NCBI GenBank assembly: GCA_028719205.1
Contig: JAQUKH010000001.1
Span: 1-64,000 of the forward strand
Reading direction: 5' to 3'
Length of the DNA: 64,000 nucleotides
Origin: a bacterium
GTDB taxonomy: Bacteria; JACRDZ01; JAQUKH01
Within the stretch, counting starts at the first letter, position 1. The number at the start of each line of letters is the position of its first letter. A program made the translations under genes and the position numbers. Shown here piece by piece: positions 3,982 to 21,118 of the stretch. A model generated the notes under the pieces. It searched no databases. It saw only the letters and a program-made list of their open reading frames with translations, and was not told the origin of the DNA.

Positions 3982-4020
3982 ACCCCTTATCCCCTCCTTA
4001 CCAAGGAGGGCTTGGGGGAG
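3982..4020. repeat. Intergenic palindrome CCCTCCTT-ACC-AAGGAGGG with flanking CCCC/GGGG arms
   Basis: Perfect 8-bp stem 3992-3999 / 4003-4010, extended by ACCCCTTATCC / CTTGGGGGAGG; no clear T-run. Confidence 0.6.
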
Positions 4021-4022
4021 GT

Positions 4023-4409
4023 TTATAATAAAATTAAAAGTGTCGAAATAACAAAACTTAAAAGCACAATTGATTCAGGTAAAAGCATTAATATAATTAA
4101 ACCGCCTAAAGTTTCAGGTTTTTCGGTAACTGTTCCTAATCCCATTCCGATAACCTTGAATTGCACGGCGATCGTGCTTAATATCCCGACTATTAAAACA
4201 ACCCCTGCTGTGACCCTTGTCACCATCTTAAGCCTGATATTACTCTCAATTTTATCCTGATCGCCCTTGTCTTTAAAAATATTTTCCAGATCAAATAATC
4301 TGCTTTGTGTTTTCTCTGAAGTAACATTTGGCTCTTGAGCTTTAACCAAAGGCATTATCATAAAATAAATACCTGTTATCAATATTATTAAATAAAATAA
4401 TTTTCGCAA
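4023..4409 (-). CDS. Orphan V/A-type ATPase K (c-like) subunit paralogue with N-terminal signal/TM extension
   Basis: TTG start. C-terminal part ...AVQFKVIGMGLGTVTEKPETLGGLIILMLLPESIVLLSFVIS matches the in-operon K subunit ...AMTQGKIGQAGCGAMAEKPELAGTIFILVAIPETMVVLGFVVG. Confidence 0.75.
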   Translation of the reverse strand: MRKLFYLIILITGIYFMIMPLVKAQEPNVTSEKTQSRLFDLENIFKDKGDQDKIESNIRLKMVTRVTAGVVLIVGILSTIAVQFKVIGMGLGTVTEKPETLGGLIILMLLPESIVLLSFVISTLLILL

Positions 4410-4547
4410 CTAAGTTCTCCCTTTTTTAGCATTACTTTTGATCAGCTTTTTAGCATATTTATAAACCTCAACAAAAAAAACAGTTTTAATTAAAATATAT
4501 ATGATATAAGCCGATAATATTATCAGTAAAGTTGATGAAAACATCAT
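4410..4547 (-). CDS. Small single-pass membrane protein (45 aa), upstream of orphan K-like gene
   Basis: Frame read manually: MMFSSTLLIILSAYIIYILIKTVFFVEVYKYAKKLIKSNAKKGRT*; its TAG stop abuts the TTG start of the K-like gene (TAG|TTG). Confidence 0.5.
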   Translation of the reverse strand: MMFSSTLLIILSAYIIYILIKTVFFVEVYKYAKKLIKSNAKKGRT

Positions 4548-4679
4548 TTGACCTGTAATTAAATAAAGAGATTTTACTATTTTTATGGTTATCAGTCAAT
4601 TCATTTTATAATAAAGCTGTTGACAGTAAATTAAAGCTGAATTAAAATAACATAGTTAAATAAACCAAGAGGAGAATTT

Positions 4680-5018
4680 ATGGTAAACAACGTTACAGAT
4701 GAAGAGTTAGGCATAAAATCGTTCCATCTCCGCCGAGACAGGGCTGTAGAACAAAGCATTGAAAAGATCAGGCAAAAAGTAGGTAATGACTGGATTCTTC
4801 TGTCCTTCAAGGATACTCAGACACTGCACTGGATCTTAGGCGAGATATGGTCGTTTATAGCGCATGATAATTGGGATAAAATATTGTTCAGCGAAATTGA
4901 ATTTAAAGACCTTAAAAAAGTATTATCCATCTCCGAAGATATTATGTCGCGTAAAAAAATGGGCGGTGCCGGGCTGGATCAGATACATAAAATACTCGCT
5001 TCAAAAAAATTAGGATAG
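4680..5018 (+). CDS. Hypothetical protein (112 aa)
   Basis: ATG ORF preceded by AGAGGAG ribosome-binding site; divergent from neighbours. Confidence 0.65.
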   Translation: MVNNVTDEELGIKSFHLRRDRAVEQSIEKIRQKVGNDWILLSFKDTQTLHWILGEIWSFIAHDNWDKILFSEIEFKDLKKVLSISEDIMSRKKMGGAGLDQIHKILASKKLG

Positions 5019-5444
5019 TTATTTCTTGAATTTTATTTTAAAAAGCGGTTCATTATTGATACCGTAATCATCGTCGTCATTTTTCGCGGGGATTTCTTTT
5101 TGTTTATTGATGTGGACGGTCTTTTTTCCTGGGATGTCAGTTAAATATTTATCATCTTTTTCTAAAAATAATTCATATTTAGCCAGCGCAATATTTCTTG
5201 AATACTCGATGCCTGAAACTCTTCTGAAAACGCTGTCTTCATACCACATTTGTAATTCAATGTCACTTACTTCCTTTAATCTTTTTTTAATATCCAGTCT
5301 TTTTTTATAATCTTTTTTTGCTTCTTCACTATTGGCTAATTTATTACCATACCTGGTGAATCGCATGAACAAAGATAATTTAAAACTTAAATATATAAAA
5401 AAAGCTACAAAATATAGTAGTATAAATTTGAAGCTAAACATCAA
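5019..5444 (-). CDS. Hypothetical protein with N-terminal transmembrane segment (141 aa)
   Basis: Hydrophobic N-terminus FKFILLYFVAFFIYLSF then charged C-terminus. Confidence 0.6.
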   Translation of the reverse strand: MMFSFKFILLYFVAFFIYLSFKLSLFMRFTRYGNKLANSEEAKKDYKKRLDIKKRLKEVSDIELQMWYEDSVFRRVSGIEYSRNIALAKYELFLEKDDKYLTDIPGKKTVHINKQKEIPAKNDDDDYGINNEPLFKIKFKK

Positions 5445-5483: not shown

Positions 5484-6653
5484 CTAAGTAAACTTAATAA
5501 ACGCTGTAGGCGGTTTTTTAAATACTTTACTTTTCTTTTTCGATGAAAAACTTAACCCCAGGGAGAATTTTGGTTTCGGAGGAGTTGGAGCTGCCAGTAA
5601 TTCAATAACAAAATCGACCATTCCGTATAATACAGGGAATTTAAATGACTTGTCATTTTCAAAAATTTCAACCTCGTCATTATTCTTAAATATGAATGTT
5701 TTGTCTCCAAGGATATCTTTTGAAATTATTACATTAAAATTTCTTTTTTGCCATCTGGCAATTTCTAAAAGATTAAGGGCAAATGATAAATTATCAATTT
5801 CATCAGCCTTAGAAACAAGATTACCGGCTTTTAAATACGCTGTTAACTGTGTTTTATAAGATTTACTCTTACTATATTCTCTGACCTCTTTAAGTACCCA
5901 GTTCTTGTATATTTCTTTTTGCTCTTGAGTCGAATCATTTATATAAAAAATATTGTGTGCCGTAATTTCAGATTGAGATTCGTCTTTTTTTACATTAGAA
6001 GTTTTGTCCTGCATTTCTTTAACGTTGAAACGGTTAAATGCTTTAATTACCTCTTTATATTTAGGATTTTGAAGTTTTTCAGTCAGTTGAAGCAATCTGC
6101 TGTCGTCAAATTGAAATAATGCTAAAGGAGCAAGATCATGGCCCCGGGTAAGTTCTAATAATGGTTCTATTTTCTTAAAAAAGCCGTTTATATTAATTAA
6201 AACTTTGCTTATTAAAGCTTTTAACTGTTTCTTAATTTCAATGGTGGATTTTTCTTTTATCAGATCTTCGTAATCTTTGTTAATTGAATTATTAAAAAAT
6301 GTAACAGCATTAGTAAAAAATGCGCTTGTTTTTTTGTTTTCTTTTAATATCTTAAACTCATTAATAACCTTTTCTGCCATCCAATACGAATCTGCCGGAT
6401 GGTCCTTAGTTAAAGGCTGAATGTTCTTAAAAGAATAATGATCCAATATACCTTGGATAATGAAATAATTTAACCATTGCTCGGCAGGAACTTCCTCTAA
6501 ATTTTTAATTACGGGATTTTGAAGATAAAATAAAGAAAAAAGATCTGTTTTAAGATCAGAGTCATTTGTTCCGGTAGCTGAAGGCTTATTTAAACTATTG
6601 AATATTTCAATAGTTTGATCTGTCGTTTCTATTACAAGTTTATCTGCTGACAT
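5484..6653 (-). CDS. Hypothetical protein (389 aa) at distal end of V-ATPase operon
   Basis: Long ORF co-directional with ntpD, 39-bp gap; no recognised family. Confidence 0.7.
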   Translation of the reverse strand: MSADKLVIETTDQTIEIFNSLNKPSATGTNDSDLKTDLFSLFYLQNPVIKNLEEVPAEQWLNYFIIQGILDHYSFKNIQPLTKDHPADSYWMAEKVINEFKILKENKKTSAFFTNAVTFFNNSINKDYEDLIKEKSTIEIKKQLKALISKVLININGFFKKIEPLLELTRGHDLAPLALFQFDDSRLLQLTEKLQNPKYKEVIKAFNRFNVKEMQDKTSNVKKDESQSEITAHNIFYINDSTQEQKEIYKNWVLKEVREYSKSKSYKTQLTAYLKAGNLVSKADEIDNLSFALNLLEIARWQKRNFNVIISKDILGDKTFIFKNNDEVEIFENDKSFKFPVLYGMVDFVIELLAAPTPPKPKFSLGLSFSSKKKSKVFKKPPTAFIKFT

Positions 6654-6692: not shown

Positions 6693-7352
6693 TTATTTTT
6701 GTTTTTCCTGTTCGATCAATTTTTTATTTTTTTCTATTGATTTTTTAACTTTCTTTAGACGGAACAGGTCCTCGCGCGCGCGTTCCTCCAGGGTCATTTT
6801 AATAAATGTTACTTGTTCTTTTAAGGCAGGAACAACTATATGTTCTAAAGCGTTTACGCGGCGGTTAGTTTTTTGAATTTCTTCACCAAGACGTCTAAGC
6901 CTGGTTTCAATGTGCGCGTTATCAATAATTACATCGACTATTTTTTCAAATTTTTCCGCTGTTTCACTGATACGGCTGCTTACTCCGGCGATACTGTATC
7001 CTCTGGAAAACTGATTTCTAAGCGGGCTTACACCTTTTGTTACTACAGGTAACGGTACACCCATAACCTGAGTACCTGTAATTGTCGCGGTGACATTCGA
7101 TTTTGTCGCGAAACTGGCAGATTTAACGGTTATCATACCGTCAACAGCCTGAGCGGTAGCCAGTGAGTATTGCCCTTCCGCTAAAGCGCGCTGCAAAAAA
7201 TTACTCATACGAAGGGCATGATCAAGAACTTTCATGAATTCCATCATTAAAGCGTCCCGTTTCTGCTTTAAAAGTTCTTTACCTTGATTAGCCAGATTTA
7301 TCTGGGTTTTTTTCAGTAATAGTTCTGTTCTTGTAGGGCTGGATGACTCCAT
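6693..7352 (-). CDS. ntpD: V/A-type ATP synthase subunit D
   Basis: PTRTELLLKKTQINLANQGKELLKQKRDALMMEF and RRLGEEIQKTNRRVNALEHIVVP are V-ATPase D signatures. Confidence 0.95.
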   Translation of the reverse strand: MESSSPTRTELLLKKTQINLANQGKELLKQKRDALMMEFMKVLDHALRMSNFLQRALAEGQYSLATAQAVDGMITVKSASFATKSNVTATITGTQVMGVPLPVVTKGVSPLRNQFSRGYSIAGVSSRISETAEKFEKIVDVIIDNAHIETRLRRLGEEIQKTNRRVNALEHIVVPALKEQVTFIKMTLEERAREDLFRLKKVKKSIEKNKKLIEQEKQK

Positions 7353-7380
7353 AAATTATTTTTGTCCTCTTATCTCAAGT

Positions 7381-8778
7381 TTATTCTGTTTTAGTTTTTA
7401 CCCTGTATTTAGCAATATGTTCTTTCTTGACCTGCTTTAATTCGCCATCCGGATACGCGGATACCAATTCCCATCCCATATCCAATGTTTGCTCAATGGT
7501 CCTGTCCTCATTACCTTGAGAAATAAAGAACTTTTCAAAATCATCGGCGAATTTTAAATGTTTTCTGTCTAATTCCGACAAAGCTTCTTCACCGACAATT
7601 GCCACCAATCTTCTCAGGTCACGGCCCTGCGCGTAACTGGCATATAACTGGTTCGCGATACCGCGATGATCTTCTCTTGTTTTTCCGTCACCTATACCCA
7701 TATTCATCAAACGTGAAAGACATGGAAGAACATCTATCGGAGGGAAAACACCTCTTCTGAATAGTGAACGGCTTAGAACGATCTGGCCTTCTGTGATATA
7801 ACCTGTTAAATCCGGTATAGGATGCGTAATATCGTCATCAGGCATCGTTAAAATAACAAGCTGTGTTATGGAGCCTTTTTTTCCTTTAATCCTTCCAGCT
7901 CTTTCATAAATAGTTGAAAGGTCGGTGTACATATATCCCGGATAACCGCGCCTGCCGGGAACTTCTTCACGCGCAGTTGATATTTCACGCAACGCTTCGC
8001 AATAGTTTGTCATATCGGTTAATATTACCAGTACCTGCATGTCTTGTTTGAATGCCAGATACTCAGCAACAGTCAAAGCGCACCTGGGAGTAACAATACG
8101 TTCAATTGTCGGGTCATCAGCGAGATTTAAGAAAAACACGACTTTTTGCAGAGCGCCGGTTTGCTCAAAATTCTTTTGAAAAAATGAAGCCTCCCTGTTA
8201 GTGATACCCATAGCTCCAAAAACTATCGCGAATTCTTCCCCGCTTTTAACTTTTGCCTGCTGAATAATTTGCGCGATCAATTCATTAGCAGGTAAACCGG
8301 AACCTGAAAAGATCGGCAGTTTCTGGCCACGGACCAGTGTATTTAACCCGTCGATCGCGGAAATACCGGTCTGTATAAAATCTCTCGGTTCAGCTCTTGA
8401 ATAGGGATTGATCGGAGAACCGGCAATTTCAAGCATTTCGTCGGGTATTATTTCAGGGCCGCCATCGATCGGTTTTCCAAAACCATTCAAGACCCTTCCC
8501 ATCATGTCTACTGAAACACCTATTTTAGCTACTTCACCTTTAAATTTTACAGTTGTTTTATCAGCATCTATACCCTGCGTACCCTCAAATATTTGAACGC
8601 AAGCCATTTCTTCTGAAATTTCCAGTACCTGCCCATTTCGCACTTTCCCATCCGGTAAGGTAATTTCAACCATTTCTCCATATGAAACACCTTTTATTCC
8701 CTTTAGGAAAACTAAAGGGCCGGTAACATAATTTACTGTCCGGTATTCACTAGAGACTAACTTTATTTTATTTGACAT
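7381..8778 (-). CDS. ntpB: V/A-type ATP synthase subunit B
   Basis: [56 protein letters not shown]. Confidence 0.97.
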
Positions 8779-8781
8779 TTT

Positions 8782-10542
8782 TTATAATACCTCCAACGCA
8801 ACAATTTCGTTATTTATTTTGTCTGCTAAATGGGTTAAGACCTCTACTGCTTTATCTAACGGAATTTCTTTCATTCTCGCGATCTCATTTTTAATAGGTA
8901 ATGAAGAGATCTGCTGTAAGGTTACTCCTCTCTCTACCGCCTGAGCGATCGCGTTATAATAATTTATAATTACTTTCAACATCCAATATTGTTTTTTTGG
9001 AGAACAATACGCGTCTATGTCATGAAAAGCGAATTGCTGAAGAAAATCTTCTCTTATTATTTTCGTAACTTCTAAAATTATCTTTTCTGTTTCAGGCAAG
9101 GCATCCGGCCCGACTAACTGAACTATTTCCTGAAGTTCAACTTCCTTCTGCAAAAGGAACATTGCCTTATCCCTTAACTCTTTCCAATCAGCTCCGACAT
9201 TTGTCAAATACCAATTCAGTACCTGATCAACATATAAAGTGTAACTTTTTATCCAGTTGATAGCCGGGAAATGCCTTCTATGGGCAAGACTCGCGTCCAG
9301 CGCCCAGAACGCGCCTGAAATTCGAAGTGAATTTTGCGTCATCGGTTCGGAAAAATCTCCTCCGGGAGGTGAAACCGCTCCAACAACTGTAATAGATCCT
9401 GTACGCTCATGCTTGCTCGCGAGGCACATGGTTCTTCCGCTTCTTTCATAAAAATTAGCCAAACGTGTAGCAAGATATGCAGGATAACCTTCTTCTCCAG
9501 GCATTTCTTCCAAACGGCCTGATACTTCACGCAGTGCTTCACCCCAGCGTGAGGTTGAATCCGCCATCATCGCCACGTCATAACCCATATCTCTAAAATA
9601 CTCGGCAAGTGTTATTCCTGTATAAATAGAAGCTTCACGGGCGGCAACAGGCATGTTAGAAGTATTCGCTACAAGAATTGTTCTCTGCATTAAAGGAATA
9701 CCGGTTTTTGGATCAACTAATTGAGGAAACTCAACCAGAACTTCAGTCATTTCATTACCGCGTTCACCGCATCCGACATAAACAATTATGTCCGCGTCAG
9801 CCCATTTAGCCAGGGACTGCTGTGTTACTGTCTTTCCGCTTCCGAAAGGCCCGGGTATGATCGCGTTTCCGCCTTTAGCAATAGGGAAGAACGTATCAAA
9901 AATTCTCATTCCTGTTAAAAAAGGAAGATCTGGATCTAACTTCTTTTTAAATGGCCTTGCGATACGCACCGGCCACTCCTGTTTCATTTTTATTTCAACA
10001 TTATTATCTAAAGTGACTATTGTGTCAGTTATTGTATATTCACCTTTTTTAGCGACCTTAGTAACTTTATGCAGTTTGTTCAGTGTCGGCGGTACCATTA
10101 TCCGGTGTTCAAAAGTTCCGTTTTCCACGACAATTCCTACAATATCGCCGTTACCTATTTCGTCGCCAACGCTGATCTTAGGTTCAAATAACCATTTTTT
10201 ATCTGCATCCAGGGCAGTGACATTTACTCCTCTTGTAATAAATTCACCGTATTTCTTAGCTATTTCAGGTAGAGGACGCTGAATACCATCATAGATCGAT
10301 GTTAAAAGGCCAGGCCCTAATTCGATCTTTAAAGGCTGTTCAGTACTGATTACCGGTTCACCGACTATTAAACCGGAGGTATCTTCATATACCTGGATCG
10401 TTGCTTTATCACCTTCCAAACGGATTATCTCACCAATTAAACTCATATCCCCGACTTTAACAACATCATACATTCTTGCGCCGGCAATTTCTTTCGCGAT
10501 TACAACGGGCCCTGATATTTTTGATATTTTACCTTTAAGCAT
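8782..10542 (-). CDS. ntpA: V/A-type ATP synthase catalytic subunit A
   Basis: Walker [51 protein letters not shown]. Confidence 0.97.
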
Positions 10543-10571
10543 ATTTTTCCTTTAATCCTTATAATAAATGG

Positions 10572-10907
10572 TTAAGTTTTTCTTAATGAAATATCAAATC
10601 CAACTGCTTTACGGATCAAACGAGCCAGATAACTCCGCCGTACGTCACCAACTGCCTCAATTTTTTCCCTGACAGGTAAAGCAACAACTATAGGCTTATA
10701 GACACGATCAATTTTTTCCTGTGTACGTTGATCTATGGCAGGTATAAAACTCTCATTCAAGCCAATAATTCCGATAGTGTCATCGTTTAAAAGAGTGAGC
10801 AAGATCCTTTTTGCTTCTTCTCCATTTGCGGCTTCATATGATTCAAGTCCGGCCAATCTAAAACCATATACAGTATCTTTATCAGATATAACTACTACTT
10901 TATACAA
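10572..10907 (-). CDS. ntpF: V/A-type ATP synthase subunit F
   Basis: Small ORF between A and C; DKDTVYGFRLAGLESYEAANGEEAKRIL is F-subunit-like. Confidence 0.88.
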   Translation of the reverse strand: MYKVVVISDKDTVYGFRLAGLESYEAANGEEAKRILLTLLNDDTIGIIGLNESFIPAIDQRTQEKIDRVYKPIVVALPVREKIEAVGDVRRSYLARLIRKAVGFDISLRKT

Positions 10908-10925
10908 GAAAACTCCTTTAGCTAT

Positions 10926-12311
10926 TTAAACAAGTATTAACTCTTCACGTATTTTCTTTTCCGGCATTCCAACTTTTTTACAGCGCAGTATAATTCTTAA
11001 ATTTACTACTTCATTATATTTTTTCCATATATACCCGATAGGGACACCTATGGATAAAGAATTCTTATGATAAGCGTTAATTCCTTTTTTTATGACCATT
11101 TCTTCTATTTTTCTTTCCAGAACTGAAATTGTATTATATTCTAAAAAACGCTGCAGAACACTTTTTAAAACTATGCCGAAAGAAGTCGATTCTAATTCCT
11201 TTAAAACCTTTTGCACATCCATTGTAAGGCACATTTTTACGAATTTTCTTTCAGTTATTTCTTTACCGCCGTGAACAAAGTATTCTTCAATATTTTTTAC
11301 AACATCATCCTTACTGTATATTTTAATATTTTCAAAAGAATCTCCATAAAGATCCTTTTTGTTTTCCGCTTTATTCCTGAAATTATATTCACCTTTTGCT
11401 TTTTTAAATTTCCGTCCTAAAAAATTAAAACCATTTTTCCATAATCTTGAGAAAATATTTGTATGGAATTTTTTTGTAAAAATTATACCGCCGTATTTTT
11501 CTTCCTGAGTCATCATCTCCCAAAAAGAAATTTCATCCTTTGGGATATTTTTAGTTTTTTTAGCTTCTTCTTCAATCTTTTTTTCCATCAGGTCATTTAG
11601 ATCCGCAAGCTGTAATCGCAATATTGTAGTTGTATTAATAGCGTCTATCTCGTATGATATCAATTCTTCTAAAACCTTACAGTTGTAACTTCTGTTCTTT
11701 ATTATTTCAAGAACGTGCTGATAATACATCTTATAAAGTGATAACTCCATCATTGATAAGTTCTTTGTTTCTGTATATTCCATGAATTTATCAATTAAGG
11801 CTTTTGCGTAAGGAGACCCCCAGGTGGCTAACAAATCAATTACTTCTTTAATCGAATTCAGATGCGCTAATTGATCTAAAAACGGAGTGTCTAATTCACC
11901 GGCAGGGATAAGGCTTTCCATTATTTGCTCGGGCGTAGCTTTTATATGTATGCCCCTGAGCAAAGTAATTATATTATGCAGATCCCATCTTCCGAGCAAA
12001 AGCATAATCAGATCATGAGGCTCTCCAGCAGTAAAATTTAATATTCTCCTGAAATTGCGAGATAAATTTCTCTTGAGAGCCTCATCTACTCCCGCCATCT
12101 CTGATTTAGAAATGGCACACTCTTCAACTTCTGTCCTATAGGGTGATTTATCCATAAGGCTTATTAAACTCATAAATTCATGAGTATGCAATAATTCCTC
12201 ATAGAAATCACGGCTAAGAAGAACACTTTTCATCGCTCTCACCCGCGCGTTTATATATCCATAATCATCTATATGCGCGTGTGACTTAGCGTTCACTGAA
12301 AAGTACCTCAT
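10926..12311 (-). CDS. ntpC: V/A-type ATP synthase subunit C (d-like), with internal lysine-rich insertion
   Basis: YGYINARVRAMKSVLLSRDFYEELL, GRWDLHNIITLLRG; 461 aa, longer than typical. Confidence 0.9.
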   Translation of the reverse strand: MRYFSVNAKSHAHIDDYGYINARVRAMKSVLLSRDFYEELLHTHEFMSLISLMDKSPYRTEVEECAISKSEMAGVDEALKRNLSRNFRRILNFTAGEPHDLIMLLLGRWDLHNIITLLRGIHIKATPEQIMESLIPAGELDTPFLDQLAHLNSIKEVIDLLATWGSPYAKALIDKFMEYTETKNLSMMELSLYKMYYQHVLEIIKNRSYNCKVLEELISYEIDAINTTTILRLQLADLNDLMEKKIEEEAKKTKNIPKDEISFWEMMTQEEKYGGIIFTKKFHTNIFSRLWKNGFNFLGRKFKKAKGEYNFRNKAENKKDLYGDSFENIKIYSKDDVVKNIEEYFVHGGKEITERKFVKMCLTMDVQKVLKELESTSFGIVLKSVLQRFLEYNTISVLERKIEEMVIKKGINAYHKNSLSIGVPIGYIWKKYNEVVNLRIILRCKKVGMPEKKIREELILV

Positions 12312-12876
12312 TGAGTTGGGTTCTTAGAAACTCTCTGGATTTAATCAAGCGTGACTCAAGAGTATTTGAAACAGAGATCCTATTGTCGTTTACATTCAGA
12401 GTTAAACCGCCTAAATAATCCTTATCAGCGCTGACTGTGTAATTTAAATTTAACTCTTTTAAGCTGCTACTGGCTAAATCTTTATCTTTAGGATTTACTT
12501 CAACTATTATTTTAGTTCCTTTGACCGCATCTAAAGATTCAATCAATAAATTCTTGAATATCTTTTTGTAAGCTTCCTGATCTTTACGGATATTACTCAG
12601 ATGCTTTTCGATATCGGAATAAATTTTAGAAGTAAATTCTTCTTTAGCCCTGGTAATCGCTTTTTTTCGAAGCAGATCTGATTCAATTTGGATCCTCGCT
12701 GAGTCGCCTTTTAGCTTTATATCCATTTTTTGAATATGAAACGTCTTTAAATTTTCAGCTTCATCTTCTGACTCTTTAATAATTTGCTGTGCCTCTCTTT
12801 TAGCTTTATCTATTAAATCGTCACGCAAATCTTTAGCTTCATTTTCAAGAGTTTCAAAAACCTTCTCTAATGACAT
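12286..12876 (-). CDS. ntpE: V/A-type ATP synthase subunit E
   Basis: Coiled-coil N-terminus and GGLTLNVNDNRISVSNTLESRL E-subunit motif; position in operon. Confidence 0.9.
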   Translation of the reverse strand: MSLEKVFETLENEAKDLRDDLIDKAKREAQQIIKESEDEAENLKTFHIQKMDIKLKGDSARIQIESDLLRKKAITRAKEEFTSKIYSDIEKHLSNIRKDQEAYKKIFKNLLIESLDAVKGTKIIVEVNPKDKDLASSSLKELNLNYTVSADKDYLGGLTLNVNDNRISVSNTLESRLIKSREFLRTQLNEVLFSER

Positions 12877-12902
12877 AAGTTAATTCTCCTGTGCTACTAA
12901 TG

Positions 12903-13196
12903 CTATTTAACAAAGAATAAAATCATTGCACCGACAACAAATCCTAAAACTACCATTGTTTCCGGAATAGCTACAAGGATAAATATTGTACCTGCTAATT
13001 CCGGTTTTTCCGCCATAGCTCCGCATCCGGCCTGCCCAATTTTACCCTGGGTCATTGCCGTCGCTATTGCTGTTAGAGCAACTGACAACATTGCTGCGAA
13101 CGCAACACCGATCTTTAAAATTACCGGCGCCATTGCAGACGAATTTGCTGCTACTACTGTAGCCACTTCTGCGACTGCCTGAACTGGTTCTGACAT
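12903..13196 (-). CDS. ntpK: V/A-type ATP synthase subunit K (proteolipid/rotor)
   Basis: Start at MSEPVQAV with GGAGGTGAATAAC ribosome-binding site; two-helix hairpin, ...AMTQGKIGQAGCGAMAEKPELAGTIFILVAIPETMVVLGFV. Confidence 0.92.
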   Translation of the reverse strand: MSEPVQAVAEVATVVAANSSAMAPVILKIGVAFAAMLSVALTAIATAMTQGKIGQAGCGAMAEKPELAGTIFILVAIPETMVVLGFVVGAMILFFVK

Positions 13197-13197
13197 G

Positions 13198-15189
13198 TTA
13201 TTCACCTCCCATCTTTTTAAAAGGTTTGTATTCTGATTTTGCTGGTTCATAAAATTTAGAGAAACATTCAACTAAATGTAAACGCAGCGTATGTATTGAC
13301 GGACTGAAAGAACTTACTATTATATTAACTGAATGAAGTAATATGGCTAAAAATATTCCGGCAAGTTTCATTCCAATTCCTCCCATGCCGCCGATCTTTA
13401 CTCCTAAACTATTTGCAACTACCCCTAAAATTACTCCGGCCAATCCTATTGCCATTATTCTGGCATATGAAAACGCATTACTGAAAGTACCTAATATTTC
13501 CACAATTCCCCGAATACCTCCACCCATAGCAGCTAAAACAATTCCGATCGATATCGCAACTCCACCAAAAATTCTCAGAAATGCTATTTTATAAAATACT
13601 CCAATTATTAAAAGGATCGGTCCGATTATAATAACTGAAAAAATTCCTGCCTTTTCAAAAGCATGATCTCTGTTTTTTTCTCTTATCCCATTAATAAAAC
13701 CAAATATCAGACCAAACCCGATATGAATAACCCCCATTATTATGGCTAAAATTAAAAGTTCTTTCATAAATTTCATTCGATCCAACGGGAAAGGAATTCC
13801 CATTAGAATAGTTGGTTTAATTGGCTCAATACCAAAATGTTCAAAGACAACTTCCAGTCCATTTCCAAAAATTTCCATATACATAAAACCCCAGATTATC
13901 GCGCCAATGGAAGATATTCTTAAAACTTTTGACAATACTAATAAAACATCATCGCCTTTAGACGCGTTTTTCATTAGATAAGAAATACCGAAAATTATTA
14001 TTCCATAACCTATATCCCCAACCATCATTCCAAAAATGATCGGAAAAAATACAGCCATAAAAATTGTCGGGTCTATTCCGCCGTATCTTGGTTTTTTCAC
14101 AAAAGAATAGAAAAATTCAAATGGTTTGGCCCAGGCCGGATTATTAAGTGAGACAGGAGCTTCTTCCAATTCATGATGGGTAAGTTCTAATCTCAGTAAC
14201 GCGACTTTACCCAGAAATTCATTTATTAGCGCGAGTGAGCATTTTTCCAGGTCTTTTTCAGGAATCCATCCCGTAATAATAAAAGTGTGTCCAGTGCTTC
14301 CGAATTGAGGGATTACCTTGATCTCTTCATCTTTATCTTTCAAAACATTCCTTACTGCGATAACCCGGTGATGCCAGGTGGCGGATATATTTTCGAGGTC
14401 AGTATTAATAGTCTTTAATTCTCCGGGGATCTCCTTTTTCCTGTCATTAATTTTAGCTAACGCATTTTCAAAGGATTCTTTCGCGATTTCTTCAGGCAGT
14501 TTTATCTCATTAACTTTTTCCATTGAAAAGAAATCATGTACTGATTTGGAATAAATTTTGTTATAAATTATTATTATACCGATATTTTTCTCATCAACAT
14601 CAGCGGAAACCAAATGGCATTGTTTCTTGCATATATTTTCCAGTTCTTCTCTTAAGCCATCGATAGCCGCCTTATTTTCTTTATCAAGCAGAAGGGCAAT
14701 TGATTCGAATCCTTCAGTTGTACAAATTTGTTTAGCTAAAGGCTGAATTTTTTCCAGGATAGGTTCATATTTTGAATATACGAACAATTTCGCTTCAAGA
14801 TCATTCTTCTTCTCATAAAGTTCTGTAGCTTTTGTTTTTACACCATCAATTATCAGGTCAACCTCATGTAATAATTCGTCAAAGGTCCTGTTATATAGTT
14901 CTTTGTAAAGAGATCTGGTTTTTGCTTTATCGATCTTAGTATCTTTTAAAGTAATAATGATCCCGTTGATCTTCATTAGCGCTGACTCTATTTTTTTCTT
15001 CTTTTCAGCAAGGATAGGCTCAACGATCATAGGAGTTAAATAGGATTGCTCCGTTTCTGCATCATTTTCTTTTATTTCGCGGGTGATATTTTCGACATGA
15101 AGGGTTCCTACCTGGTGCATGTAGCTGACAACGTCAAGAAAAAGGCTTTTAGGCCCTATTACTTGTACTTTAGCCATTCTTAAATGCAT
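13198..15189 (-). CDS. ntpI: V/A-type ATP synthase subunit I (a-like)
   Basis: 663 aa; MAKVQVIGPKSLFLDVV N-terminus, FFPIIFGMMVGDIGYGIIIF, FSNAFSYARIMAIGLAG. Confidence 0.95.
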   Translation of the reverse strand: MHLRMAKVQVIGPKSLFLDVVSYMHQVGTLHVENITREIKENDAETEQSYLTPMIVEPILAEKKKKIESALMKINGIIITLKDTKIDKAKTRSLYKELYNRTFDELLHEVDLIIDGVKTKATELYEKKNDLEAKLFVYSKYEPILEKIQPLAKQICTTEGFESIALLLDKENKAAIDGLREELENICKKQCHLVSADVDEKNIGIIIIYNKIYSKSVHDFFSMEKVNEIKLPEEIAKESFENALAKINDRKKEIPGELKTINTDLENISATWHHRVIAVRNVLKDKDEEIKVIPQFGSTGHTFIITGWIPEKDLEKCSLALINEFLGKVALLRLELTHHELEEAPVSLNNPAWAKPFEFFYSFVKKPRYGGIDPTIFMAVFFPIIFGMMVGDIGYGIIIFGISYLMKNASKGDDVLLVLSKVLRISSIGAIIWGFMYMEIFGNGLEVVFEHFGIEPIKPTILMGIPFPLDRMKFMKELLILAIIMGVIHIGFGLIFGFINGIREKNRDHAFEKAGIFSVIIIGPILLIIGVFYKIAFLRIFGGVAISIGIVLAAMGGGIRGIVEILGTFSNAFSYARIMAIGLAGVILGVVANSLGVKIGGMGGIGMKLAGIFLAILLHSVNIIVSSFSPSIHTLRLHLVECFSKFYEPAKSEYKPFKKMGGE

Positions 15190-15215
15190 AACAAGCCCCC
15201 CTATTTGATGTTAAA

Positions 15216-15563
15216 TTAGACATTAGGGATTATCTGTTTCAACAGATAATCGTACGCTTTACTGAAATTTTTATCGGCAGTATTCTTTACTTTTACAACA
15301 TCTTTGTCATCAAATTTACTTTTGTCGCGATTCAGCGCGGATAATTTTTGTTTGTAATAGGTTTCCGCCTCTTTTATTGAACTTTCCTGCGAATTCGCTT
15401 TTATCTCATGGGCTGTCTTTCGGGCATCAGCAATAATTCTTTCAGATTGTTTTTTCGCTTCAAGATATTTCCCGCCGAATTCCAGCTCTTTTTCTTTGAT
15501 TTTTTTCAGAGGGCTGTCAGCCTTTGGGTGTGAATCTTTATCATGATCATTCTTTTTTGACAT
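15216..15563 (-). CDS. V/A-type ATP synthase subunit H/G-like coiled coil
   Basis: KQSERIIADARKTAHEIKANSQESSIKEAETYYKQKL, first gene of operon. Confidence 0.7.
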   Translation of the reverse strand: MSKKNDHDKDSHPKADSPLKKIKEKELEFGGKYLEAKKQSERIIADARKTAHEIKANSQESSIKEAETYYKQKLSALNRDKSKFDDKDVVKVKNTADKNFSKAYDYLLKQIIPNV

Positions 15564-15787: not shown

Positions 15788-16462
15788 TTATGACCTGTTT
15801 TCAATCTCATCTTTAACTAAATATATACTTACATTAAGTATTATAACTAATAAATATAAAAAAGTAAATCCAATTATTGAAATAAATAATGTTTTTAACA
15901 TCACAGGATCAAGCCCCCCGCTTTTGCTGTTTAAAACAGCCTGCGGATGTATTGTCCTCCACCAGCGTATGGACATATATACTATCGGAACATCTAAAAA
16001 ACCAATAATGCCGAATACCGCAGCGGCCTTCGCGCCTTTAATCTCGTTTTCAGTGAAAGGACGGATAAAAATGTATGCCATATATATCATCCACAGGATC
16101 AATGTGGTTGTAAGCCTGGCATCCCAGGACCACCAAGCGTTCCAGATCGGACGGGCCCAGATCGGCCCGGTAATTAGAACAATAGTACAGAAAATCAGCC
16201 CTATTTCAGCGGATGAGCGCGCTATAATATCCCAGATCTTTTCTTTTTTCCATAGGAAAATAATACTCGAAACAAAAACTACAAAAAACGCGAAAAATGA
16301 AAGCCATGCGGACGCGACATGAAAATAAAATATTTTTTGGATGATCCCCATTGTCTCTTCAACCGGAGCTAAAATGAAAATATAATAAAGCGAAGCCTCG
16401 ATCATAAGAAACGTTATACCTAAAAGAAAAAGATATGTTCTATAAAAATATTTGTTGACCAA
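15788..16462 (-). CDS. ccmC: Heme exporter protein CcmC
   Basis: IFYFHVASAWLSFFAFF, GPIWARPIWNAWWSWDARLTTTLILW tryptophan-rich WWD motif. Confidence 0.94.
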   Translation of the reverse strand: MVNKYFYRTYLFLLGITFLMIEASLYYIFILAPVEETMGIIQKIFYFHVASAWLSFFAFFVVFVSSIIFLWKKEKIWDIIARSSAEIGLIFCTIVLITGPIWARPIWNAWWSWDARLTTTLILWMIYMAYIFIRPFTENEIKGAKAAAVFGIIGFLDVPIVYMSIRWWRTIHPQAVLNSKSGGLDPVMLKTLFISIIGFTFLYLLVIILNVSIYLVKDEIENRS

Positions 16463-16557
16463 TTTTGCTCCCTGTCATAATTAACTGTTTACTGTTAAAT
16501 ATACCTGATTTTCCGGATTAAGTTACTTAATTACGCGACCGGCTCCAAAGGACTTAC

Positions 16558-17238
16558 TCACTCCTCGATCAAATATTCAAAAGTAAGATACGGAACCGTA
16601 ATAAATATTATATCAAACGCTGTAAGTAATTTTAACCAGCCTGATATTTCAGAAAATGACTTTCCCTGTAAAATACTGCCTGTGGTCTTTACTGCCGCGA
16701 GAATTAAAGGCACCATGAGGGGAAATAATAAGATCGGAAGCATGATCTCCCTCGTTTTTGTATTTACCGCCATCGCGCTAAGCGCGGTACCTAAACCGGC
16801 TATACCGGCAATACTAAGAAAGAATACTAATAGTAATTTCGGCAAAAACGGGAAAATGTTTATATTATAAAAAATAGTGAATATCGGAAGGCTTAACCCT
16901 ACCACAATAAAAATAAAAATAATATTACCCAGCATTTTCGCTAAATATATCGCGCCCCTGTCTATCGGGGTCAGCATAAGGCCGGAAATACAATTATTTT
17001 CACGTTCAGGCAGAAATGTGCGGTTTAATCCCAATACGCTTGCGAAAATATAGGCGACCCAGAGTATTCCCGGAGCGATCTCATTTATATATGACGCGCC
17101 AGGCTCAAATGTAAAATTGAAGATCACAAAAACTAAAACGGTAAAAATAATAATTGAACTGATAGTTTCTTTTGTCCTGAGTTCACTGATCAGGTCTTTA
17201 TTTATTATGGCCCATACTATTTCAAAATAATTTTTCAT
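16558..17238 (-). CDS. ccmB: Heme exporter protein CcmB
   Basis: NKDLISELRTKETISSIIIFTVLVFVIFNFTF, LLFPLMVPLILAAVKTTG. Confidence 0.93.
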   Translation of the reverse strand: MKNYFEIVWAIINKDLISELRTKETISSIIIFTVLVFVIFNFTFEPGASYINEIAPGILWVAYIFASVLGLNRTFLPERENNCISGLMLTPIDRGAIYLAKMLGNIIFIFIVVGLSLPIFTIFYNINIFPFLPKLLLVFFLSIAGIAGLGTALSAMAVNTKTREIMLPILLFPLMVPLILAAVKTTGSILQGKSFSEISGWLKLLTAFDIIFITVPYLTFEYLIEE

Positions 17239-17945
17239 TTTGTCTTTATGCAGTTTAAATATATCTCGGAAATATTTTCTTTTTTTATGTTACTTTTATC
17301 TTCTAATAATCTTATCTCTCCGCATGCAAGAATAGCAATTTTTGTCGCGGTTGTCCATCCCTTTTCAAGGTCATGTGTCGTGATGATCATGGTTTTTTTA
17401 TCCTGATGAAAACCAAATAGAATATTTGTAAGTGAATCTGAAGCCTGCGGATCTAATCCCGTATATGGTTCATCAAGAAAGATTATCGCGGGGTCATGAA
17501 TAATGGCCCTGGCTATTGCGAGCCTTTGGCTCATTCCGCGGGAAAATGTGCGGACCAGGGTATCCCTGTGAATGGTCAAATTGAATTTTTCTAAAAGTTC
17601 ATCGACTCTGTTTTTTAAATTTTTAACGCCGTATAATTTGCCGTAGAAAAAAAGATTTTCTTCCGCGGTAAGATTTCCGTACAGGAACGAATCATGTGAT
17701 ATTATACCTATATATTTTCGGATGGACGGTTTATCGTCGTGTATTGATATCCCGCATATGGTTACATCTCCCGCTGATGGATGAAGCAGGGTTGACATTA
17801 TTTTAAGGAGGGTGGATTTGCCGGCGCCGTTCGGCCCGAATAGAGTAAGAGATTCGCTGTTACACAGACTTAAATTTACATTATTAAGAGCGACTTTTTT
17901 CCCAAAATATTTTGATACCTGCTTGACTTCAATGACACTATCCAT
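17235..17945 (-). CDS. ccmA: Heme ABC exporter ATP-binding protein CcmA
   Basis: Walker A GPNGAGKST, signature FSRGMSQRLAIAR, Walker B IIFLDEP. Confidence 0.93.
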   Translation of the reverse strand: MDSVIEVKQVSKYFGKKVALNNVNLSLCNSESLTLFGPNGAGKSTLLKIMSTLLHPSAGDVTICGISIHDDKPSIRKYIGIISHDSFLYGNLTAEENLFFYGKLYGVKNLKNRVDELLEKFNLTIHRDTLVRTFSRGMSQRLAIARAIIHDPAIIFLDEPYTGLDPQASDSLTNILFGFHQDKKTMIITTHDLEKGWTTATKIAILACGEIRLLEDKSNIKKENISEIYLNCIKTK

Positions 17946-18261
17946 TATTAGCCGATATTGTAGAAGCGTTTTCTGTCCCCGCCGCTATATGGTCTATTTC
18001 CTGGTAAATCAGAATGACTTTTGTTTTATATTCTTCGTGCAATTTTTCAAAATCAGAGGTTGACAGCTTTCCTGTTTTAAATTCAAACTCCAGGTCTTTT
18101 AATAAAGTAAACAGTACTTTTTTATGTTCATTTAATTCTCTTATTCTATCCTCGCCTGAAACCGTTTGCGCGGCAGCTTCTTCTTTTTTGCCTAAAAATA
18201 CCGGCAACAAAATAAAAATAATTCCAAATGAAGTTAAAACTGCTAAAATAATCGTAACCAT
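17938..18261 (-). CDS. CcmI-like small membrane protein (107 aa)
   Basis: N-terminal TM then ELNEHKKVLFTLLKDLEFEFKTGKLSTSDFEKLHEEYK, typical of the CcmI N-terminal region; position in operon. Confidence 0.7.
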   Translation of the reverse strand: MVTIILAVLTSFGIIFILLPVFLGKKEEAAAQTVSGEDRIRELNEHKKVLFTLLKDLEFEFKTGKLSTSDFEKLHEEYKTKVILIYQEIDHIAAGTENASTISANNG

Positions 18262-18708
18262 TTAATCCTCTTTTTTGAATATTTCGAATTCTTCATTAAA
18301 CCGTTTATTATAATCAGTAATATCTTTAGAGGCTTCAACTATCTCTTTATCACGGAGATTAGTCTTTTCTCCTTTTGTGATCCATTTTTTAATGTAAACA
18401 AAAACAAGAACGAACGCGATGGTCAGGCCGATCACCGGGATCACATAAGGTTTAAATCCCATTCGTTTCTCTCTTGTAACTACCAGTACTCCCTCACCGA
18501 ATTGTTCCGCTACCGCGTCTAATATCTCATCTTTAGCTTTACCCTCTTTAATTAAGCTATTAACCAGAGAAACAATTTCCGGGCGGTCATGATCCGGACA
18601 TTTTATTTCAGCGCGAATATCTTCTACGCTAACCGCAAGAACAGGCTGTATCCCGGAAAATATTATCGCTGCCAGAATTATTAAAATAAAAACTTTTTTA
18701 TTTCTCAT
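18262..18708 (-). CDS. ccmH: CcmH-like cytochrome c biogenesis protein lacking CXXC
   Basis: IRAEIKCPDHDRPEIVSLVNSLIKEGKAKDEILDAVAEQFGEGVLVVTREKR then TM; aligns to CcmH but has CPDH in place of CXXC. Confidence 0.82.
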   Translation of the reverse strand: MRNKKVFILIILAAIIFSGIQPVLAVSVEDIRAEIKCPDHDRPEIVSLVNSLIKEGKAKDEILDAVAEQFGEGVLVVTREKRMGFKPYVIPVIGLTIAFVLVFVYIKKWITKGEKTNLRDKEIVEASKDITDYNKRFNEEFEIFKKED

Positions 18709-20674
18709 TTTTTTTCCTATTAGGACAAAAGGCTATTGTTGTCCCGATAAATATCACAATACCGCCCAGCCACATCCAGACCACCAATGGATTTATTAAA
18801 ACCCTGAAGGTAGCATTACCCGTGTTAGCATTATAACCGTTTAGTATTACATACAGATCATCTAAAAGCGTAGTAGCTATCGCAACCTCTGTCGTCGGTT
18901 GTTCATGATTAGGGAAAAATCCCTTTTCAGGCCGCAATTTATATATCGATTTATTATTTTTATAAACTGTTAATACAGCATAAACCGACTGTTTATCCGG
19001 ATGTTCGACAGCCTGCAGGTCATCATATGTTAATTTATATTTACCTATTTCAATTGTACTGCCTATTTTAATATTTTCCACATCCTTTTCAATGGAATAG
19101 GCTCCTATCCCTATCATTCCTACAAACATCATAACTATTCCAATATGAACAATATAACCGCCGTACCTTCTTTTATTGCTCCAGATCAGCGCAAAAAAAG
19201 ATGTAAAATAATTTTTCCCTGTATTCTGGTGCCGGATGATTGTCCCTCTGTAAAATTCCACGATAATAGCCATAATTACAAATACTACAAAAATGGAAGG
19301 AATCAGGGCAATTATTTTTCTGTTACCGAGTATATAAAAAACAACTAACGATATTCCTGAAATAATTACCGGTAATAGAAAATTTTTCTTAAAGTTTTGA
19401 GGTGAGGTTTTACCCCAGGAGATCAACGGACATACTGCCATAAGTATCAAAAGTAAAGTCCCGAGCGGAACATTCGCTTTATTAAAATAAGATTGGCCAA
19501 CGGTTAATTTGACTCCGGTAAATAATTCCGAAAAGACAGGGAACATTGTTCCCCAAAAAGTAACAAAGAAAATACTGAATAAAATGAAATTGTTAAAAAG
19601 GAACATATTTTCTTTTGAGATCATTGATTCCATCTCATTTTGATTTTTTAAATATTTTCTGCGGATTATAAGCAGCAAAAGCGATCCGGCTAAACATAAC
19701 GAAATAAAGCTGATAAAATACGGGCCGACACCTGTTTCGCCGAAAGCGTGAACCGAAGATAAAACTCCGCTTCGCGTAAGAAATGTGCCAAATACGCATA
19801 AAATGAATGTTAATATTATCAAAACCATATTCCAGGTCTTTAACATTTCCTTTTTTTCCTGGATCATCGCCGAATGTATAAAAGCGGTACCAACGAGCCA
19901 GGGCATTAATGAGGCGTTTTCGATCGGATCCCACGCCCAATAACCGCCCCATCCTAATTCCACGTATGCCCATTGCGCTCCCAGGAGAATTCCTAAACTC
20001 AGGAAAAACCAGGAAAACAAAGACCACCGCCTGATATCTTTTATCCATTCATTATCCAGTTTTTTACTTATAAGGGCCGCGATCGCGAACGCGAAAGGAA
20101 TAGTGTATCCGACATAACCTATAAAAAGTGTAGGCGGATGCCATATCATTCCTGGATTTTGCAAAAGCGGATTTAAACCGTAACCATCAGGCGGTGTAAA
20201 CATCTTTCCTGTTGTTGTGTCCATTACCCTGGTAAAAGGATCGGCAACACGGACCAGAACAAAAAGAAAGAAAAACTGTATAAAAGATATTATTGATATA
20301 ACATAAGGGAAAAATTCAATTTCTTTTTTCCTTTTTGTAAGAATCAATACTGCGTTAAATAACGCCATGATCCACGCCCAGAAAAGCAAAGACCCCTTTT
20401 GCCCCGCCCAGAAAGCAGAGATCGTATAAAGCAGTGAAAGCGTCCGGCTCGTATGTTCGTAAACATATTCAATGCTGAAATCCCTGTTAAGCAATGAATA
20501 TAATAACGCGAAAGAAGTAATAGAAACAAAAATAAAACTGACAAGTAAACCGTTTTTTGAGCTCTCCACCAGGGAATATGATTTAAATTTTATCCCGAAA
20601 ATAACCGCGATAAAAGTATAAAGGGCGAATACAGCGCTTATAATTAACGAATAGTAACCAATTGTTGTTATCAT
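18698..20674 (-). CDS. ccmF: Heme lyase CcmF
   Basis: AFWAGQKGSLLFWAW, GWGGYWAWDPIENASLMPWLVGTAFIHS, FGTFLTRSGVLSSVHAFG. Confidence 0.97.
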   Translation of the reverse strand: MITTIGYYSLIISAVFALYTFIAVIFGIKFKSYSLVESSKNGLLVSFIFVSITSFALLYSLLNRDFSIEYVYEHTSRTLSLLYTISAFWAGQKGSLLFWAWIMALFNAVLILTKRKKEIEFFPYVISIISFIQFFFLFVLVRVADPFTRVMDTTTGKMFTPPDGYGLNPLLQNPGMIWHPPTLFIGYVGYTIPFAFAIAALISKKLDNEWIKDIRRWSLFSWFFLSLGILLGAQWAYVELGWGGYWAWDPIENASLMPWLVGTAFIHSAMIQEKKEMLKTWNMVLIILTFILCVFGTFLTRSGVLSSVHAFGETGVGPYFISFISLCLAGSLLLLIIRRKYLKNQNEMESMISKENMFLFNNFILFSIFFVTFWGTMFPVFSELFTGVKLTVGQSYFNKANVPLGTLLLILMAVCPLISWGKTSPQNFKKNFLLPVIISGISLVVFYILGNRKIIALIPSIFVVFVIMAIIVEFYRGTIIRHQNTGKNYFTSFFALIWSNKRRYGGYIVHIGIVMMFVGMIGIGAYSIEKDVENIKIGSTIEIGKYKLTYDDLQAVEHPDKQSVYAVLTVYKNNKSIYKLRPEKGFFPNHEQPTTEVAIATTLLDDLYVILNGYNANTGNATFRVLINPLVVWMWLGGIVIFIGTTIAFCPNRKKNEK

Positions 20675-20704
20675 ATTTATTTTCTTCCTAGTTGCTGACC
20701 GCTA

Positions 20705-21118
20705 TTACTTTTTAGCCTTTTCAGCTTCATATTTTGACGGACATTTGGCTAACAAAGTTCTTGCTAAAAAAACCCTTTGTTCAGAAAATTTTCCTTCAAC
20801 AATAACCGTAACACCCTCTTTAAAAGTATCAGGAATTGTTCCGTGATACTCTACATTGAGTTTTTCATGCGTTTTTTCATCTTCCATTTCAAATTTTAGA
20901 TTTAAATTATCCTGATCCCATTTTATTGAATTTTGGGTTACTTTGCCGCCCACCCGCATACCCTTATCATTAGATGTAAGGCCTTTTGATAAAACCTCAC
21001 TGACAGTGTAGTAATAAACCATAGTGTCTTTCATCCCGGCGAATATTAAATATCCCACCGCCGCGATAACTACAAGAGAGCCTGCAATAAGTTTTTTCTG
21101 TTTAGATGTTAGTACCAT
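20705..21118 (-). CDS. ccmE: Heme chaperone CcmE, CXXXY type
   Basis: KKLIAGSLVVIAAVGYLIFAG; MRVGGKVTQNSIKWD; LLAKCPSKYEAE (CXXXY rather than HXXXY). Confidence 0.93.
   Translation of the reverse strand: MVLTSKQKKLIAGSLVVIAAVGYLIFAGMKDTMVYYYTVSEVLSKGLTSNDKGMRVGGKVTQNSIKWDQDNLNLKFEMEDEKTHEKLNVEYHGTIPDTFKEGVTVIVEGKFSEQRVFLARTLLAKCPSKYEAEKAKK

Follow-up and report, generated by a model that had tools for sequence, protein, structure and literature searches.

The window, that is, the whole 64,000-nucleotide stretch of DNA analyzed here, belongs to a 2.6-Mb draft genome (G000) and harbors a V/A-type ATPase operon and, outside this operon, a gene for a protein resembling the rotor-ring subunit K (here named the orphan). 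For comparison, four genomes of this small phylum were used, of which G001 is the only other one from the same genus. The following features were identified at the locus:

4023 to 4409, minus strand: orphan K-like (c-type) proteolipid, 128 amino acids (aa), TTG start
4410 to 4547, minus strand: small open reading frame (ORF) of 45 codons (MMFSSTLLIILSAYIIYILIKTVFFVEVYKYAKKLIKSNAKKGRT) with one predicted transmembrane (TM) segment, unannotated
4571 to 4599, minus strand: promoter-like site for the unit of small ORF and orphan, TTGACT-17-TAAAAT, a 10/12 match to the consensus
4620 to 4648, plus strand: promoter-like site for the divergent 112-aa gene, TTGACA-17-TAAAAT, an 11/12 match to the consensus
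4680 to 5018, plus strand: divergent 112-aa gene, 74% identical and kept in position in G001, without a Pfam match
5019 to 5444, minus strand: 141-aa protein with one N-terminal hydrophobic segment, conserved in the genus (52 to 53% identity in G001)
5484 to 6653, minus strand: 389-aa ViaA/VWA-like protein without the MIDAS motif DxSxS, adjoining the D gene
6693 to 15563, minus strand: V/A-type ATPase operon, from upstream G/H-like, I, K, E, C, F, A, B, D
12903 to 13196, minus strand: in-operon K, 97 aa, single hairpin, 88% identical in G001

The reading frame of the orphan was confirmed as real, including its length and TTG start, which is preceded by AGGGAGAA, a ribosome-binding site. Past the D gene, the order is the 389-aa gene, the 141-aa gene, the divergent 112-aa gene, the orphan unit, and purL, which closely follows the orphan and has the same orientation. 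The operon seat between I and E is held by the in-operon K, and the orphan sits behind the divergent gene at 2.3 kb from the operon (D gene end at 6693 to orphan start at 4409), a distance that the initial annotation had put at ~2.7 kb. A near-perfect palindrome, CCCTCCTTACCAAGGAGGG, lies at positions 3992 to 4010 between the orphan stop codon and purL and occurs as a single copy within the window; it is possibly a repeat element or a processing/attenuation site.

The small ORF and its upstream promoter-like site had been missed by the initial annotation. The TAG stop of the small ORF abuts the TTG of the orphan, and the counterpart in G001 (L014:954-1088) ends with a TAA stop that abuts the orphan TTG in the same way. 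The two versions, of 44 to 45 codons, share 21/44 residues and a conserved core, YIL-I/V-K...FF-V/I-EVY-x-YAKKLIK; no Pfam match was obtained for the small ORF. Differences at the three codon positions amount to 18/12/17 overall and 4/1/7 in the core, which is not a strong coding pattern, and it is from position and core conservation that we consider the small ORF likely to be coding. The hexamers TTGACT and TAAAAT and their spacing are identical in G001. The two promoter-like sites stand back to back, and much of the region around the site of the 112-aa gene is conserved in G001 as well. The orphan appears to lie outside the ATPase transcription unit, in a separate unit with the small ORF and a predicted promoter.

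Several further observations were made around the operon and elsewhere in the genome. Over 387 aa, the 389-aa protein shares 24% identity with a VWA protein of 506 aa that is encoded elsewhere in the genome beside a MoxR (RavA-like) AAA+ ATPase (L041:6076-8873), and the MIDAS-like DTSLSM of this VWA protein reads KAGNLV in the 389-aa paralogue; structural identification of the 389-aa protein by Foldseek gave nothing meaningful. In Escherichia coli, a link between RavA-ViaA and respiratory complexes has been reported (PMC3893208, PMC10585395), and a MIDAS-less VWA relative beside a V/A-ATPase is therefore worth a look. Cytochrome c maturation-like genes (CcmC, CcmB, CcmA, and CcmF-like), identified by eye from the translations at 15788 to 21118 on the minus strand, adjoin the ATPase operon, and this cluster is syntenic in G001. 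Contig C18 (L017:7014-15563) carries a second V/A-ATPase operon, whose K is a double hairpin of ~200 aa, and the cell would have two rotary ATPases with different ring types. When the genome was inspected for a second I subunit as a partner of the orphan, just the two expected operon copies were seen. The literature on Desantisbacteria ATPases yielded nothing relevant.

Relationship to the ring subunit K

The initial annotation had proposed that the orphan is a paralogue of the rotor-ring subunit K. Against a curated cutoff of 24 bits, the Pfam profile ATP-synt_C (PF00137) matched the orphan ORF with 23.9 bits (E value of 4.9e-5), the orphan in a six-frame genome scan with 25.7 bits, and its ortholog in G001 with 24.2 bits; the in-operon K reached 52.8 bits. 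The match of ~24 bits is thus significant though borderline and supports the proposed paralogy. Alignment of the orphan with the in-operon K by hhalign gave an E value of 1.7e-6, and the hairpins are 30 to 37% identical. By sequence criteria, we regard homology to the ATP-synt_C superfamily as secure, with a profile score that sits on the cutoff line; a weak but beyond-chance match is as expected for a strongly diverged relative. The hairpin alignments quoted in the initial annotation, as well as Gln83 and Glu112-Ser113, were all correct. In a tree of 60 columns, the orphan pair from the two species stood apart on a long branch of its own; it did not group with the in-operon K and had no supported position elsewhere. 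A recent duplication of the in-operon K is not supported by this isolated position, and 60 columns are too few for placement.

The protein comprises a signal peptide (residues ~1 to 24), a hydrophilic tail (~25 to 58), helix 1 (~60 to 96), and helix 2 (~98 to 127) with Glu112, and the loop at residues 96 to 99 reads EKPE. An AF2 model built on a 16-sequence alignment (mean pLDDT of 70.6) shows the hairpin with helices at 52 to 96 and 98 to 127, together with a signal helix and a low-confidence tail. The model, which is of moderate confidence, includes a mid-membrane carboxylate on helix 2, Glu112, that is conserved in both orphans. A Foldseek search with this model placed Thermus V/A and Ilyobacter c-ring chains on top, with probabilities of at most 0.96 but E values above 0.1. 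By sequence and fold, the V-type rings of E. hirae and Thermus are the nearest solved neighbors.

We then compared the orphan with 20 single-hairpin K subunits from its own phylum and others. Many of them share a signal peptide and a hydrophilic stretch ahead of the hairpin, an arrangement that is common among bacterial V/A-type K subunits, including that of Thermus, for which solved K entries are listed in a 99-residue and a 74-residue form. The signal-like N terminus, initially singled out as a special feature, was accordingly rejected as a novelty. The reported N-terminal addition of ~60 aa is present, as ~25 aa of signal peptide and ~35 aa of hydrophilic tail, but ordinary single-hairpin K subunits commonly have one, and the orphan N terminus is typical for the family, if longer.

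Similarly, the residues initially read as the pattern of a Na+-binding ring are present but are not diagnostic for Na+. Gln at position 83 and Glu-Thr at positions 112 to 113 occur in 20/20 of the collected K subunits, including that of Thermus, whose hairpin in our set is letter identical to the solved Thermus V/A ring. The Thermus V/A enzyme is a proton pump. Since Gln and Glu-Thr/Ser are found in every collected K, they give no indication of Na+, and the argument from them for Na+ specificity of the orphan was rejected as non-diagnostic. Overall, the orphan resembles the V/A-type K (L in Thermus) in its signal peptide, hydrophilic stretch, and helix-loop-helix, with the helix-1 Gln, the helix-2 Glu, and the E-K-P-E loop. 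It differs by its longer hydrophilic tail, the location of its gene outside the operon, and the loss of small residues in helix 1 described below.

Conservation and the helix-1 pattern

The ortholog in G001 (L014:1089-1475) is of equal length and also starts with TTG. Identity is 63% overall, with 60/69 residues in the hairpin and 26/27 in the loop plus helix 2. Comparison of the two genes by the NG86 method gave dN/dS values of 0.26/1.31 (~0.20) for the whole gene and 0.10/1.00 (~0.10) for the hairpin, which are rough because dS is at least 1 and near saturation. Hairpin differences fall on codon positions 1/2/3 in a ratio of 10/3/31. The initial annotation had allowed for a decaying duplicate free of purifying selection; the low dN/dS values and the equal lengths indicate instead that the orphan is under purifying selection.

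In G001, too, the orphan has purL and the 112-aa gene as neighbors. There, the ATPase side lies on another contig, which overlaps the orphan contig by 289 identical bp at the 112-aa gene, and linkage of orphan and ATPase in this genome is likely though indirect. The two contigs concerned, C55 and C97 (L014 and L015), have different flanks on both sides of the identical 289 bp, and one of the contig ends is therefore probably chimeric.

A profile built from the two orphan sequences was searched against 386 genomes and gave full-length matches solely in the two genomes of the genus; no ortholog was detected in the 384 others. The remaining matches were partial and, with few exceptions, restricted to the hairpin; those whose context was read were ordinary K subunits. 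A search of genome contigs with the orphan sequence and a search of viral contigs revealed no ortholog, and among the loci read from a mixed-profile search only ordinary K subunits were found. Among the relatives in the phylum, G001 possesses both the orphan and a probably linked ATPase. In G003, which has the same ATPase type as the window and an assembly that is 78% complete, no orphan-like ATP-synt_C locus was detected beyond its two ATPases, and unrelated sequence instead of an orphan was present upstream of purL. G002 carries an F-type enzyme.

Among the 20 K subunits, 16 hairpin positions are Ala, Gly, or Ser in at least 90% of the sequences, and 13 of these always-small positions fall in helix 1. 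Each of the 20 K subunits deviates at 0 to 1 of them. The orphan of the window deviates at 7/16 (71V, 73I, 76I, 80I, 84F, 87I, and 89M) and that of G001 at 8/16, counts that assume an ungapped alignment, while MAFFT and phmmer favor a 2-residue gap near position 76; the replacements at positions 80, 84, 87, and 89 are safe under either alignment. All deviations are located in helix 1, and helix 2 has none and retains its Glu. Ile76, Ser/Gly78, Ile80, Val82, Phe84, and Ile87 are common to both orphans, and positions 76, 78, 80, 84, and 87 are small in 20/20 K subunits, with position 76 depending on the choice of gap. Positions 76 to 82 are the counterpart of the small-residue motif of helix 1 (GxGxGxG type), and mutations of the glycine motif in an F-type ring alter ring stoichiometry (PMC3692424). 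The packing pattern of K-type helix 1 (AxAxGxA/GxGxGxG type at 76 to 82 plus the rest of the small set) is absent from both orphans.

The divergence of the orphan thus appears targeted to helix 1, with the loop and helix 2 almost fully kept. One stripe of helix 1 is altered (73, 76, 80, 84, and 87), and small residues are retained at 68, 78, 90, 92, and 93. This stripe was chosen post hoc, and a test for clustering of the replacements by helix face was not significant; for the latter reason, we treat the single-stripe arrangement as a hypothesis.

Possible roles of the orphan protein

The homology, the selection, the conserved local gene arrangement, and the pattern of loss and retention are supported by the data. 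They fit a paralogue retained for a specific function that depends on helix 2, on Glu112, and on the loop but not on K-like packing of helix 1. Our preferred reading, held tentatively and at somewhat less than even confidence, is that the orphan is an accessory proteolipid of the neighboring V/A-ATPase, diverged, of c type, and specific to the genus, and thus more likely an accessory part of the pump than a normal ring piece. An old paralogue of the single-hairpin V/A ring subunit would have been maintained by selection and turned into an accessory proteolipid. It would be exported via its signal peptide, which would leave the ~35-aa tail outside and place the helix-loop-helix in the membrane with the orientation that K has. 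The orphan may contact the membrane sector of the ATPase with its conserved loop and its conserved, Glu112-bearing outer helix, a partnership that we infer. The protein would be made apart from the operon, together with a 44- to 45-aa single-TM partner.

Along one stripe of its inner helix, the orphan carries bulky residues at sites that are always small in K, and it is therefore not expected to form or fill an ordinary tight K ring. Its helix 1 would argue against normal ring packing, and a role as a minor ring subunit, one of the options raised initially, is possible but made harder by the lost small residues. We infer that few copies are present on the rotor or stator, in one special seat, in an assembly intermediate, or in a regulatory bound state.

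The suggested link to the neighboring ATPase draws on the adjacency of orphan and operon in the window and on their connection via the contig overlap in G001. This adjacency argument is weak, since purL follows just downstream in the same direction and a divergent gene separates the orphan from the operon. Also, the partner could be the second V/A-ATPase with the double-hairpin K, and the presence of the ATPase in G003 without a detected orphan means that the enzyme does not need the orphan everywhere.

Eukaryotic V-ATPase c' and c'' are diverged proteolipid paralogues that occupy single ring seats with ring packing kept; no specific sequence link of the orphan to them was found. The minor subunit of Acetobacterium woodii is a V-type-like double hairpin within an F-type ATPase, unlike the orphan, which has one hairpin, an altered packing, and a V/A-ATPase as its genomic neighbor. 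The likeness is that different kinds of c subunit share a bacterial rotor in the heteromeric Na+ c-ring of A. woodii, whose c2/3:c1 ratio of 9:1 is a precedent for a single special c subunit in a larger set (PMC8904574). With a minor special subunit already documented in bacterial rings, the accessory idea is not exotic.

Alternatively, the orphan might be a ring assembly or regulatory factor: while the ring is being built, it would hold either K monomers or the I subunit, and it would be released afterward. AtpI, the F-type c-ring assembly factor, is required for c-ring assembly in A. woodii (PMC8904574), and the orphan, itself a c-type protein, would be AtpI-like in its possible role alone. 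Such a role could suit the helix-1 stripe, as a one-sided contact with a partner, and the predicted transcription apart from the operon with a small TM protein. However, the stripe carries the statistical caveat given above, and homology to known assembly factors was not found. We consider this explanation rather unlikely.

Just as unlikely, in our estimate, is a part in another machine, with the orphan and its small TM neighbor assembling into an oligomer or channel that has no connection with either ATPase. The separate promoter-like site, the small TM partner, purL on the other side, and the long isolated tree branch are compatible with this, but the conserved carboxylate, Gln, and loop are ring features, and the genus keeps the adjacency to the operon.

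Slightly less probable still is an ordinary alternative ring subunit that takes some or all of the K seats when conditions differ (another ion or another ring size) and couples like K. The orphan retains Gln83, Glu112-Ser113, a basic residue at position 85, and the EKPE loop, and its signal peptide matches the architecture of an ordinary K. Against this stand the separate promoter-like site and the Val, Ile, Phe, or Met residues at positions 80, 84, 87, and 89 (plus 71, 73, and 76 if ungapped) in both species, found in 0/20 K subunits. A decaying duplicate of K, as the low profile score and long branch might suggest, is highly improbable and was rejected on the basis of intact genes of equal length in two species, the dN/dS values, and the third-position-biased differences.

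A more specific form of the accessory role, which we offer as a long shot, is a one-sided rotor subunit. With its ion-carrying helix kept and one packing stripe bulky, it could dock on K from one side only. With a co-transcribed micro-protein as partner, it could then determine how large the ring grows or when its assembly starts or stops, or it could keep the rotor in an off state.

What is new here is a conserved, genus-limited, diverged variant of a known ring-subunit family. It serves as a warning that a match to a ring-subunit profile outside the operon need not be a ring subunit. The wider questions are what sets the subunit number of rotary ATPase rings and whether bacterial V/A rings have special seats. 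A c-type protein that is conserved, with its ion-carrying helix intact and its packing helix altered, would provide a natural test case for ring start, closure, or silencing.
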